A stretch of DNA of 64,000 bases from Pelotomaculum schinkii. Lineage in GTDB: Bacteria; Bacillota; Desulfotomaculia; Desulfotomaculales; Pelotomaculaceae. Below, in pieces: positions 19,116-22,500 of the stretch. Made by a program: the position numbers and the translations under genes. The first letter of the stretch is position 1; each line of letters opens with the position of its first letter. The stretch is from contig NZ_QFGA01000002.1 in NCBI RefSeq assembly GCF_004369205.1, positions 310,001-374,000 on the forward strand, given 5' to 3'. Under the pieces are notes generated by a model. That model ran no database searches. It worked only from the letters and a program-made list of their open reading frames with translations, and was not told the DNA's origin.

Positions 19116-19364
19116 TCAGCTGCCGCCCTCCACCTTCAGGAAAGTGAGGCGGTGGTCATAATGACAATTTGGACAGGCAAAAAGGTGGACACAGTGGGCG
19201 CCGTCATCACAGCCGTAACCATCCTGGTAGATGTCCTGAGCCAGATAAGGGCTGTAATCGTCGTAATAATCCTGGATTTTTCCAGCGTCAACCATCTGCC
19301 GGCCGCAATTGGGACAGTTCTTCTCTACTGCGATCAAGCTGTTGCAAACCGGACACACCACCAC
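19116..19364 (-). CDS. Small zinc-ribbon protein
   Basis: About 82 residues with four cysteine pairs or near-pairs: CPVCN, CPNCG, a single C in GYGCDD with AHCVHLFAC, and CPNCHYD. Two zinc knuckles flank an acidic tyrosine-rich middle (YYDDYSPYLAQDIYQDGYG). The GTG at 19364 follows GGGGTGAGC by a few bases; a longer frame back to 19415 has no SD. It is a conserved-looking hypothetical; metal binding is likely and partners are unknown. Confidence 0.55.
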   Translation of the reverse strand: MVVCPVCNSLIAVEKNCPNCGRQMVDAGKIQDYYDDYSPYLAQDIYQDGYGCDDGAHCVHLFACPNCHYDHRLTFLKVEGGS

Positions 19365-19530
19365 AGCGCTCACCCCGAAAGAAAAGTATGTAACTACTAT
19401 ATGCAAATGAATCAACTATGATTTTCAACCACATACTACCGGCAAAAAAAAACATCTACGTACAATGTGTGCCCAGAGCAGGTTTTTATTGTACCCTTTT
19501 AGTTTTTCCCGAAAAGTTTACAATAGTCCG

Positions 19531-19566
19531 TTGACAAATATATCTTAATATCGTAATATATGAATT
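19531..19566 (+). promoter_or_regulatory. Sigma-A promoter with ArsR-type operator
   Basis: TTGACA (19531-19536), 17-base spacer, TAATAT (19554-19559). The spacer and -10 form a loose palindrome (ATATATCTTAATATCGTAAT, then ATATGA), of the size and AT content that ArsR-family repressors bind. It most likely serves self-repression by the regulator that follows. Confidence 0.65.
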
Positions 19567-19588
19567 AACAGATTAATACAAAGGGGTA

Positions 19589-19891
19589 ATGATATTGAAG
19601 GAAATGGAGCCATATATTGAGAAAGCGGAACTGCTCAAAGCGCTGGCCCATCCCACCAGGCTCTGCATTGTCCACGGCCTGCTGGAAAGCGAGTGCAATG
19701 TCAATTACATCATAAGCTGTCTTGAATTACCCCAGTCAACGGTTTCCCAGCAACTCGGTATCCTGCGCAGCAAAGGGATTATTGAAGGCCGCCGCAAGGG
19801 AACTGAGGTATGCTATAAGGTTACCAATGAACTAGCCCGCGAGATTGTAAGATTTTTATTTTTTGATCAAAAACAAGAGGAGGACTCATAA
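19589..19891 (+). CDS. ArsR-family repressor, likely persulfide or thiol sensing
   Basis: 100 residues, winged helix. HPTRLCIVHGLLESE opens the fold, the recognition helix is LPQSTVSQQLGILRSKGI and the wing is EGRRKGTEVCYKV. Four cysteines (LCI, ECN, ISC, EVC) could form a redox pair, as in the SqrR/BigR subgroup; the classic arsenic ligand triad in the recognition helix is not seen. Its stop overlaps the start of the CoA-disulfide reductase gene by one base. Control by persulfide is inferred from the neighbours. Confidence 0.75.
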   Translation: MILKEMEPYIEKAELLKALAHPTRLCIVHGLLESECNVNYIISCLELPQSTVSQQLGILRSKGIIEGRRKGTEVCYKVTNELAREIVRFLFFDQKQEEDS

Positions 19892-21555
19892 TGAATCCCC
19901 AAAAACAAAAGTTACTCATTATCGGCGGTGTAGCCGCGGGTACCAAAGCAGCCGCCAGGGCCAGGCGGGTGGACCCCGACTTGGAGATTACGGTTATAAC
20001 CAAGGACCAACATATTTCTTACGCCGGGTGCGGTCTTCCCTACTATATAGGCGGGGTTATCAGGGAGGAGAAAGAACTGCTGGTCAAACACCCGGAAGAT
20101 TTTCAGGTGGACATGGACATCAAAGTCCTGACCCTTCAGGAAGCCCAAAAAATCCTGCCGGAGGAAAAGCTTGTAATTGTAAAAGATCTTTCCAGCGGTG
20201 AGATCCGGAACATGCCTTATGACAAGCTGCTCCTGGCGACCGGCGCCTATCCCCTTGTTCCGCCGCTGGATGGCAGGGAATTGGGCAATATCTTTACCCT
20301 GCGCACCGTTTCAGACGCTTCTGCCCTCAAGGAAAAGCTGCACGGCAACCCGCGGGAAGCCGTTGTTATCGGCGGAGGGCTGATTGGTTTGGAAGCGGCG
20401 GAAAATCTGGCGCGCCTGGGTATCAAGACTACGGTAATCGAACTGGCCCCCCACGTCCTGCCGCCTTTTGACCGTGACGTGGCCCTGCATGCGGAAAAAC
20501 ACTTGAGAGAAAATGGGGTTGAAATCCTGACCGGGACAGCCGTTAAGAGTTTTACAGATAACGGACAGGGAGAAGTGGGCGCCGTACTGACCAGCGCCGG
20601 CGCCATTAAGGCCGATTTCGCGGTGCTTGCAGTGGGAGTTCGCCCCAACGTGGAACTGGGCCGGCAGTGCGGTATCGCCTTGGGACCGACCGGGGCTATT
20701 GCCGTGAACAAAAAGATGGAGACAAATATTAAAGACATCTACGCCGCCGGTGATTGCGCCGAAAATACCAACCTTATTACGGGGAAACCGGTATGGTACC
20801 CAATGGGGTCCAATGCCAATAAAACCGGCCGTGTAGCCGCCAATAACATAGCAGGTGGCGGCGGGGATACCCTCGAAGGATTTTTGGGAACGGCGGTTGT
20901 TAAACTGTTTGACCTTAACCTGGCCAAGACCGGCCTGTCAGAAAGAGAAGCCAGAGCCATGGACTATGATCTAGAAACCGTCCTGGTTCCGGCCCCCGAC
21001 CGGGCCCACTACTACCCTGGCAGTCGCCAGATAATAACCAAACTCATTGTTGAACGTCAGAACCGCCGCGTCCTCGGCGCTCAGGTTTTTGGCGAGGGCA
21101 CAGTGGATAAACCAATTGATATCCTGGCCACAGCCATCACTTTAGGAGCAACCGTCGACCAGGTGGCAAAGCTGGACCTGGCCTACGCCCCGCCCTTTTC
21201 CACCGCCATGAGTTCAACCATCGTCGCAGCCAACGTGATGATGAATAAACTGCAAGGAAAGTTTAAGGGAACCAATCCCCTGGCCCTGAAGGAAAGGATG
21301 GATGCCGGAGCAATCCTCTTGGATATCAGAACCGAGGAAGAATTCTTCGTCCGCTCCATCCCGGGTTCCATCAATATTCCCCTGGGCCGGCTCATGTCCC
21401 GGCTCGATGAGTTGGACCGCGCCAAGGAGATAATTATTAACTGTAAAGTGGGATTTCGCTCCTACAACACGCTTCTGAAGCTTAAGAAGCTCGGCTTTGA
21501 AAACCTCAGCATCCTGGAAGGCGGGATCAGCGCCTATCCTTTCGAAATTGAATAA
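19891..21555 (+). CDS. CoA-disulfide/persulfide reductase with rhodanese domain
   Basis: 554 residues. An FAD site at the N-terminus (IIGGVAAGTKAAARARR), the single redox cysteine in SYAGCGLPYY (about residue 46), an NAD(P)H site VVIGGGLIGLEAAENLARLG, the second FAD motif DIYAAGDCAE and a C-terminal dimer domain. A rhodanese domain follows from about residue 465, with its active cysteine in INCKVGFRSY. Such fusions reduce CoA persulfide or disulfide with NAD(P)H and handle sulfane sulfur. GAGGAGG lies ahead of the ATG. Second gene of the operon with TusA and DsrE-like proteins. Confidence 0.9.
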   Translation: MNPQKQKLLIIGGVAAGTKAAARARRVDPDLEITVITKDQHISYAGCGLPYYIGGVIREEKELLVKHPEDFQVDMDIKVLTLQEAQKILPEEKLVIVKDLSSGEIRNMPYDKLLLATGAYPLVPPLDGRELGNIFTLRTVSDASALKEKLHGNPREAVVIGGGLIGLEAAENLARLGIKTTVIELAPHVLPPFDRDVALHAEKHLRENGVEILTGTAVKSFTDNGQGEVGAVLTSAGAIKADFAVLAVGVRPNVELGRQCGIALGPTGAIAVNKKMETNIKDIYAAGDCAENTNLITGKPVWYPMGSNANKTGRVAANNIAGGGGDTLEGFLGTAVVKLFDLNLAKTGLSEREARAMDYDLETVLVPAPDRAHYYPGSRQIITKLIVERQNRRVLGAQVFGEGTVDKPIDILATAITLGATVDQVAKLDLAYAPPFSTAMSSTIVAANVMMNKLQGKFKGTNPLALKERMDAGAILLDIRTEEEFFVRSIPGSINIPLGRLMSRLDELDRAKEIIINCKVGFRSYNTLLKLKKLGFENLSILEGGISAYPFEIE

Positions 21556-21568
21556 GGAGGCTTGAAAA

Positions 21569-21802
21569 ATGGCGGAAAAGTTTATCAATTGCAGAGGGCT
21601 GCAGTGCCCGGGACCGATCGTGCGTCTGTTTAAGGAAGCCCAAACCTGTGCCGCTGGGGACATCATGGAAATCGAGGCAACCGACCTCGGTTTTAAAAAA
21701 GACATAGCTGCCTGGTGTAAAAAGACGAAAAACGAGCTGCTCTCCCTTGAAGAAGAGAACGGCGTTATTAAAGCCAGGATCAAAAAAGTTGACCAGTCTT
21801 AG
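21569..21802 (+). CDS. TusA-family sulfur carrier
   Basis: 77 residues, normal length. The active-site cysteine is in CRGLQCPGPIVRL (CPxP-like motif at residues 11-15). It carries sulfur as a protein persulfide between donors such as rhodaneses and acceptors. AAGGAGG precedes the ATG. It sits between the rhodanese-bearing reductase and a DsrE-like protein, the usual relay set for sulfane sulfur transfer. Confidence 0.9.
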   Translation: MAEKFINCRGLQCPGPIVRLFKEAQTCAAGDIMEIEATDLGFKKDIAAWCKKTKNELLSLEEENGVIKARIKKVDQS

Positions 21803-21841
21803 TTCCCCGCTGATGCCTGTTTTTTTGAAAGGGTGGTAACA

Positions 21842-22318
21842 ATGGACAGCAATAAGAAAACAATTATTGTTTTCAGCGGCGACCTGGATAAGGCGATGGC
21901 TTCGCTGATTATTGCCAACGGCGCCGCCGCGATGGGCAATGAAGTGACCATGTTCTTTACCTTCTGGGGCCTCAACATCCTGCGCAGACCGGAAAAGGTC
22001 AGAGCCAGAAAAACCTTCCTGGAAGCCCTCTTCGGCTGGATGATGCCGCGCGGCGCGGGAAAACTTGGCTTATCGAAAATGAATTTCGGCGGCATGGGCG
22101 CCTACATGATGAAAATCATCATGAAACAAAAAAATGTCAGCACCATCCATGAACTTTTAGAATCAGCCAGAGACCTGGGGGTAAGGCTTATCGCCTGCAC
22201 CATGTCCATGGACGTCATGGGGCTGAAAGAAGAGGAACTAATCGACGGCCTTGAGTACGCCGGCGTGGCCACCTACCTTGGCGCAGCCGACGAGGCCGGT
22301 GTTAACCTGTTCATTTAG
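21842..22318 (+). CDS. DsrE/DsrF-like protein (DrsE_2 type)
   Basis: 158 residues. TIIVFSGDLDKAMASLIIAN and GNEVTMFFTFWGLNILRR mark the DsrE-like fold with a hydrophobic, probably membrane-touching stretch. The conserved cysteine is in LIACTMSMDVMGL near residue 120. These proteins accept or store sulfur from TusA. The ATG at 21842 with AGGGTGG 5 bases ahead is preferred to the GTG three codons earlier, which sits in the SD. Last gene of the persulfide operon; it converges on ftsY. Confidence 0.85.
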   Translation: MDSNKKTIIVFSGDLDKAMASLIIANGAAAMGNEVTMFFTFWGLNILRRPEKVRARKTFLEALFGWMMPRGAGKLGLSKMNFGGMGAYMMKIIMKQKNVSTIHELLESARDLGVRLIACTMSMDVMGLKEEELIDGLEYAGVATYLGAADEAGVNLFI

Positions 22319-22500
22319 ACACCTCTGCGGCTGACCCGTCGAGCAGAAGATGAAACTTTTAGCCAATGCGGGTTCTAATGCGCATTCGTTGAAATATTCA
22401 GCGGATGCTTTTTCTTTTTAGCTGCAACGTTACAGTAAGAGCTATAAACCAGGGATTATTGTGTACATCCTTCTCAACAACCCCGTCCCCTTGTCAACCT

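Follow-up and report, generated by a model that had tools for sequence, protein, structure and literature searches.

The window, a stretch of 64,000 nucleotides from Pelotomaculum schinkii, contains at positions 19589-22318 four co-directional genes, arsR, a gene for a CoA-disulfide reductase (CoADR) fused to a rhodanese domain, tusA and dsrE2, and we describe here the ArsR-family repressor encoded by the first of these, its predicted operator, and the genes that the operator accompanies in related genomes. The initial annotation had proposed a unit of ArsR, CoADR-rhodanese, TusA and a DsrE-like protein, and this is borne out by the four genes, which lie on one strand at this position, and by their Pfam assignments (in operon order, HTH_5 (PF01022); Pyr_redox_2 plus Rhodanese; TusA; DrsE_2). 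The features are:

19531-19536, + strand: -35 element TTGACA, from a consensus scan
19542-19573, + strand: predicted 32-bp ArsR operator, the best match found in the genome to the covariance model R1 introduced below (25.1 bits)
19554-19559, + strand: -10 element TAATAT, from a scan, within the operator
19589-19891, + strand: arsR-family repressor gene, 100 amino acids, cysteines 26, 36, 44 and 75 (Pfam HTH_5, AlphaFold2 (AF2) model, 93-locus alignment)
19891-21555, + strand: CoA-disulfide/persulfide reductase fused to a rhodanese domain, cysteines 47 and 518 (Pfam, solved-structure matches)
21569-21802, + strand: tusA-like sulfur carrier gene, cysteine 13 in CPGP (Pfam TusA, 1.6e-20)
21833-22318, + strand: dsrE2-like sulfur carrier gene, single cysteine 122 in ACTMSMD (Pfam DrsE_2, 3.1e-67)
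22382-22408, + strand: terminator-like hairpin with a T-rich tail after dsrE2, 12 pairs (5 G-C), from the consensus scan only

The 3' end of arsR overlaps the start of the reductase gene (TAATG), and gaps of 13 bp precede tusA and of 30 or 39 bp precede dsrE2, for which ATG 21842 is a likelier start than 21833. TTG 19595 may serve as an alternative arsR start, given a run of G only 2 nt 5' of ATG 19589. The hairpin is a weak candidate, the scan having found 11 terminator-like sites against 7.2 ± 2.6 expected. Among the matches listed, the nearest named relative is a Pelotomaculum metagenome-assembled genome with an arsR 96% identical (L060). Divergent from arsR on the minus strand, 19116-19415 encodes a 99-amino-acid cysteine-rich protein with several CxxC motifs and no Pfam or NCBIfam match at E 0.001.

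A conserved operator at the operon promoter

Homologues of arsR were gathered from two sources: 60 genomes, P. schinkii included, gave 26 orthologues of at least 92.9 bits (the next best match scored 56.9), and one genome for each of 84,980 species gave at least 587 stretches in at least 575 relatives, from which the best 80 loci were kept. With 13 loci dropped because their arsR DNA was identical to that of an earlier locus, 93 distinct loci remain (L numbers are our handles for loci, G numbers for genomes; C1 and C6 are contigs). A 32-bp motif, consensus aTcnntATATCgTAATATtatAATATAataAT, recurs upstream of arsR and reaches our threshold of 12.5 directly 5' of the gene at 65 of the 93 (the control, in which every region of 60 bases or more was shuffled 20 times, reached at most 12.4). 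The matrix was trained on the same arsR-upstream sites that it scores; when Pelotomaculum (the window and its genus mate) is left out of the matrix, the window site still scores 22.6 bits, whereas 2000 dinucleotide shuffles of the sequence 5' of arsR in the window yielded no more than 14.1. A score of at least 14 was reached at 209 of the 2.01 million positions in the 93 loci, a figure that takes in genuine and overlapping sites. We also built the covariance model R1 from 40 of 54 sites, including ten of the fourteen loci in which arsR is the last gene and none of the 11 second sites discussed below.

The operator takes in most of the promoter spacer, the -10 element and 14 bp beyond it, and the arrangement recurs: an exact TAATAT occupies the -10 position at 52 of the 65 motif-bearing loci, and a -35 element with at least five of six letters stands at the window offset (-11 from the operator) at 21. 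Earlier, the site had been described as a perfect promoter with a 17-bp spacer overlapping an AT-rich palindrome. The TTGACA and the spacer of 17 stand, but TAATAT matches only 4 of 6 consensus letters and the promoter 10 of 12, which is short of perfect, although it is the best of 11 promoter-like sites found (4.4 ± 2.4 were expected from shuffles). Likewise, the comparison upholds an operator overlapping the promoter, but the palindrome by itself is weak, and because it pairs at just 8 of 16 positions in the window we dropped it as stand-alone evidence; across the loci, an average of 9.5 of the 16 positions pair, compared with 5.9 for shuffled 32-mers, and the palindrome is near-perfect (15/16) in L084 and L130.

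Gene order differs among the loci, with CoADR directly downstream of arsR in 40, arsR last behind CoADR in 14, arsR behind a DsrE-like gene in 6 and arsR alone in 33, so that an early supposition that arsR always lies beside the reductase proved false; a CoADR gene is linked to arsR in 54 of the 93, 53 of these having a rhodanese match. When arsR comes first, the operator precedes it in 39 of 40 loci. The fourteen arsR-last loci provide a held-out test: at none is the motif directly 5' of arsR, whereas all fourteen carry it 1.8 to 2.8 kb farther 5', where the first gene begins, scoring 23.1 to 34.2 bits with a matrix trained without these loci. Two are exceptional in detail: the best orientation is reversed in L136, and in L103 the first gene has its longest reading frame starting 5' of the site. 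R1 matches to the ten arsR-last sites in that model are by construction, and the held-out result is that of the separate matrix scan alone. Where a DsrE-like gene comes first, the motif precedes that gene in three of six loci (L046, L075, L083), and at lone arsR loci it precedes arsR in 26 of 33. The arsR-last loci and the other gene orders therefore indicate that the site tracks the operon promoter and not the arsR gene. Taken together, these alignments support autoregulation of the operon by its ArsR through an operator overlapping the promoter, and the position of the site across spacer and -10 element makes repression by occlusion the likely mode.

Several other neighbours of arsR were seen, clusters of neighbouring genes having been named by eye only. 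A distant DsrE2-like gene (32-37% identical) lies immediately 5' of arsR in L046, L055, L059, L075 and L083. In four Desulfofundulus-like loci (L041, L043, L164, L169), arsR adjoins the phosphorylase gene that is MTAP in the window, followed not by CoADR but by two short genes, which in L041 have no Pfam match. A lone arsR with its operator adjoins a MurJ gene in L050, L052, L054 and similar loci (checked with Pfam in L050 only), and one cluster of 12 loci is an ABC ATPase. Some matches contain a TAG, which suggested that arsR and CoADR might be fused by read-through; this was discarded, the TAG in L011 and L013 being the normal arsR stop.

Cysteines of the repressor

The AF2 model of the window ArsR is a winged helix with a mean predicted local distance difference test score (pLDDT) of 90.3, and its VIA Z is 16.3 to HlyU, 15.8 to SqrR and 15.1 to BigR. 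C26 falls in helix α2, C36 just before α3, C44 at the end of α3 and C75 in the wing, and these are the only four common cysteine columns among the 93 loci, with C26 present in 93, C36 in 91, C44 in 91 and C75 in 38; being variable, C75 is probably not part of a switch. The species-wide scan employed two peptide patterns, one containing C26, so selection accounts for part of that residue's conservation; neither pattern includes C36 or C44. Among the 26 orthologues found by whole-protein homology, where no pattern was applied, C26 is kept in 26, C36 in 25 and C44 in 24. Of the departures, L051 (C36R) is without both the operator and a linked module, and L044 and L045 (C44R) come from two genomes, one of them 79% complete, in which a search at E 1e-40 found no CoADR-rhodanese and gave no more than a 32-33% match that lacks the rhodanese part.

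The ArsR had been noted at the outset to have several cysteines and to lack the usual arsenic ligands, and both observations hold: it has no CxC, on which ground we rejected an arsenic-type ArsR. In α3 a CxC occurs in none of the 93 proteins, the sole CxC of the set being in L055 at the C75 position, and none has a vicinal CC. The position of BigR Cys42 is His29 in the window ArsR and a cysteine in 1 of 93; cysteines after residue 80 occur in three of the 93, the window not among them, and the window protein has none after residue 75. NCBIfam places the protein above cut-off only in the general metalloregulator subfamily (81.8 bits, cut-off 55), and it scores below the cut-offs of the BigR equivalog NF040642 (67 bits, cut-off 155) and PagR (60 bits, cut-off 170).

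Second operator sites and the genes they mark

In genome-wide searches with R1, between 63 and 150 first-look candidates were scored for each genome. In P. schinkii itself, where 150 of 3054 were scored, a value above 20 bits was reached only at the operon (25.1) and at C1:928940-928967 (25.0), the latter also matched on the opposite strand at 20.7 bits. This second site lies between divergent genes (L152:5611-6642; C1 about 928550-929580) for a DUF2284 metal-binding protein and a short NapH-like 4Fe-4S protein of 101 amino acids (NapH model score 40 bits, cut-off 213). Searches of 25 relatives, 113 class members (an overlapping set) and 39 locus-linked genomes added ten second sites at or above 20 bits, the lower limit for interpretation; the scan of the last set returned matches up to E 0.002 only and thus missed weaker sites, and linkage of the sites to arsR was judged by contig coordinates.

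Ten of the 11 second sites adjoin genes for CoADR, rhodanese, thioredoxin or membrane 4Fe-4S proteins. Five stand beside a membrane 4Fe-4S protein: three targets are clearly NapH-like (L153, 6041; L154, 5971; L197, 1428; 60 to 68 bits, under the NapH cut-off), one is the short NapH-like protein of P. schinkii, and one is a 193-amino-acid protein with a Fer4_5 match only (L205, 4082). A thioredoxin gene follows the site in two genomes (L202, L208), and a four-domain CoADR fusion follows it in L206 and L207, where arsR was found on another contig; the L203 site precedes rhodanese plus CoADR, upstream of the arsR operon. The initial annotation had regarded the module as self-contained, which does not hold, as the P. 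schinkii genome has another operator that scores equally well and arsR is unlinked to its likely targets in other genomes. That NapH-like Fe-S proteins recur as targets may point to a membrane redox step in the handling of sulfane sulfur, a link for which we found no paper, although NapH was not a term in our literature searches.

The enzymes are consistent with a relay of sulfane sulfur. The reductase comprises Pyr_redox_2, dimerisation and rhodanese domains, with Cys47 in SYAGCGLPYY and Cys518 in NCKVGFR, which we take to be the active-site positions of its two halves; these two residues, TusA Cys13 and DsrE2 Cys122 are presumably the cysteines expected for the chemistry of each family. The nearest solved structures are 6pfz, 3icr, 8a56 and 3nta. 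The NCBIfam CoA-disulfide reductase model TIGR03385 gives 426.8 bits, below its cut-off of 578.8, and the substrate is therefore not fixed by that model. TusA scores 73.2 bits to PF01206 and 37.3 to NCBIfam PRK00299 (below the cut-off of 78), and DsrE2 scores 225.8 bits to Pfam DrsE_2 and 103.4 to NCBIfam NF047629 (below the cut-off of 210). No DsrA match above model cut-off was found in the P. schinkii genome. A single open reading frame joins reductase, rhodanese, TusA and DsrE2 in 26 of the 93 loci (two further fusions were checked with Pfam), which argues that the four activities act as one relay; the coupling of reduction and relay proposed for this operon is accordingly matched by gene order, fusions and regulon alike.

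Proposed persulfide sensing, its rivals and known systems

We favour, at somewhat better than even confidence, a thiol-switch ArsR that represses a conserved sulfane-sulfur operon and regulon in Clostridia and their relatives, an ArsR counterpart of the CstR-CoA-persulfide reductase (CoAPR) pair. Persulfide is a plausible inducer by analogy, given the content of the target genes and the Enterococcus faecalis CstR-CoAPR precedent as it is described in extracts of PMC9405070. The reduced ArsR dimer would occupy the spacer and -10 element and block transcription until polysulfide or low-molecular-weight persulfides, such as those of CoA or cysteine, accumulate. Some of the three cysteines C26, C36 and C44 would then react to form a di- or polysulfide bridge in the α2/α3 region, beside the DNA-binding helix-turn-helix, and the bridged ArsR would leave the DNA. 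The reductase would use NADH to turn CoA persulfide into CoA and H2S, and the rhodanese, TusA and DsrE2 would pass on sulfane sulfur. The fuller proposal, to which we give slightly less than an even chance, is that C26 in α2, together with C36 and C44 at the start and end of α3, respectively, forms a third, undescribed ArsR thiol-switch layout that senses sulfane sulfur in anaerobic Bacillota and controls, as one regulon, persulfide reductase, sulfur carriers, thioredoxin and NapH-like membrane 4Fe-4S proteins, much as CstR, with its CsoR fold, does in Enterococcus and Staphylococcus.

A number of observations weigh against persulfide sensing. The cysteine pair in α2 and α5 that defines persulfide-sensing ArsRs of the SqrR/BigR type, according to extracts of PMC10509353, is absent from the window ArsR, which led us to reject membership of that type and means that the bridge of the known reactive sulfur species (RSS) sensors of this family cannot be used. 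The 33 loci that lack linked sulfur genes keep the three cysteines about equally well (C26 in 33, C36 in 32, C44 in 31), and L137 has C36S yet retains operator and reductase, C36 being dispensable there. Seven of the 33 lone arsR loci have no strong operator, nor do L055 and L059 among the DsrE-like loci, in which group L132 has too little upstream sequence; the strong site of L088 falls between arsR and CoADR, some lone-arsR genomes (e.g. G031, G045) have CoADR homologues without a strong operator match, and one of the 11 second sites (L201; G114:C6, 27.7 bits) has no evident target and was counted as a miss. Finally, two metal transporters accompany these loci: a copper-type P-type ATPase after the operator-marked gene (L205:4682-6883; 662.9 and 622.5 bits, cut-offs 346 and 397) and a cation diffusion facilitator (CDF) transporter after arsR (L059:5285-6313; 149.4 bits, cut-off 82). 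Because of these two we lowered our confidence in persulfide sensing slightly and raised that in a metal sensor by a similar amount.

Target genes for thioredoxin and NADH-dependent enzymes suit peroxide or disulfide stress as well, and the main rival, which we consider unlikely but the strongest of the alternatives, is an ArsR that senses H2O2, CoA disulfide or oxidised thioredoxin, in which case the operon would restore thiols and the carriers would handle side-product sulfur. It owes its place to the operator-marked thioredoxin genes of two genomes and to RexT of Nostoc, an ArsR-family H2O2 sensor with reactive α3 cysteines that controls thioredoxin, a thiol-redox target (PMC8960804, in extract); CoADR is NADH-dependent, and RexT-like peroxide sensors adjoin NADH oxidoreductases (PMC10509353, in extract). 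However, the vicinal Cys40-Cys41 of RexT, as given in the extract of PMC8960804, has no equivalent in any of the 93 proteins. TusA, DsrE2 and rhodanese, moreover, which carry sulfane sulfur, are the most frequent targets and form one protein with the reductase in 26 of 93 loci, and no peroxidase or catalase was recognised by eye among the second-site neighbours. The hosts, to judge from their names, are presumably anaerobes for the most part, which also speaks against a peroxide sensor.

Less likely still is a metal or metalloid sensor, in which C26, C36 and C44 would bind Cu(I), As(III), Cd or Zn through their thiolates and the sulfur genes would respond to metal-induced sulfur stress. Membership of the ArsR/SmtB family, the general metalloregulator subfamily as the sole NCBIfam model over cut-off, three conserved thiols and the transporters of L205 and L059 all point this way, as do an ArsC-family gene 1.4 kb before the L206 site and the resemblance, below cut-off, of the DUF2284 protein at the P. 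schinkii second site to the DUF2284 regions of MbdU and an ArsM fusion. Set against these are the lack of a CxC in α3 throughout the set, a window operon in which Pfam recognises no metal transporter or ars gene, and the disparity between two metal transporters and the 54 of 93 loci with a CoADR gene. It is very improbable that the repressor senses nothing directly, with its level or oligomeric state fixing expression and its cysteines structural, since, although cysteines and operator (26 of 33) are kept at lone arsR loci and L137 tolerates C36S, the three cysteines are conserved where BigR has Met, Phe and Gln and C44 is altered in both genomes without a CoADR-rhodanese match.

Neither the components of the operon nor the notion of an RSS-sensing ArsR is new. 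For this clostridial ArsR group we found no description of the cysteine layout, operator or regulon in the literature, our coverage of which is short on subscription journals, so that the negative is no proof of absence; an extract of a Nautilia paper mentions CoADR and ArsR in separate contexts, and in the extracts at hand the described RSS-sensing repressors are mainly from proteobacteria, Staphylococcus and Enterococcus. For strict anaerobes, which live with sulfide, the conserved operator, defined cysteine set and enzyme set together offer a directly testable sensor in Clostridia and Paenibacillus.

Persulfide sensing by this ArsR would have its closest family parallels in SqrR, BigR, HlyU, YgaV and sHdrR (cluster 4 of the sequence similarity network, PMC10509353, in extract), which share the ArsR fold and the link to sulfurtransferase genes. 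BigR is the best single-sequence PDB hit of the window ArsR and has Met, Phe and Gln at the places of C26, C36 and C44. A third cysteine, Cys63, is described in sHdrR and in an ArsR-type protein of the Gram-positive Hathewaya (PMC12423496, in extract), and would, counted from Cys50 by arithmetic without alignment, fall near residue 42 and not at C36 or C44. PagR of Bacillus anthracis (2zkz) is the closest solved ArsR by profile (2.8e-23), and its residues aligned to the three cysteines are not Cys. The window reductase matches the CoADR-rhodanese or NADH-dependent persulfide reductases 3nta, 3icr (B. anthracis) and 6pfz (Archaeoglobus) over their full length as the same two-domain enzyme, with a cysteine in each half, and differs from them in sharing an operon with separate TusA and DsrE2 proteins.

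The nearest functional parallel is in E. faecalis, where CstR, which senses persulfide and belongs to another family, is the repressor of CoAPR, a thiol-sensing repressor thus standing over a CoADR-rhodanese reductase and sulfurtransferases (PMC9405070, in extract), and the window reductase is a homologue of the CoA-persulfide reductase 8a56. CstR, in the same extracts, is an all-helical CsoR-family tetramer with a dithiol of C31 and C60 or C62, whereas the window ArsR is an unrelated winged-helix HTH_5 protein whose operon adds TusA and DsrE2. If our reading is correct, repressor control of CoA-persulfide reductase would have arisen in two unrelated folds.

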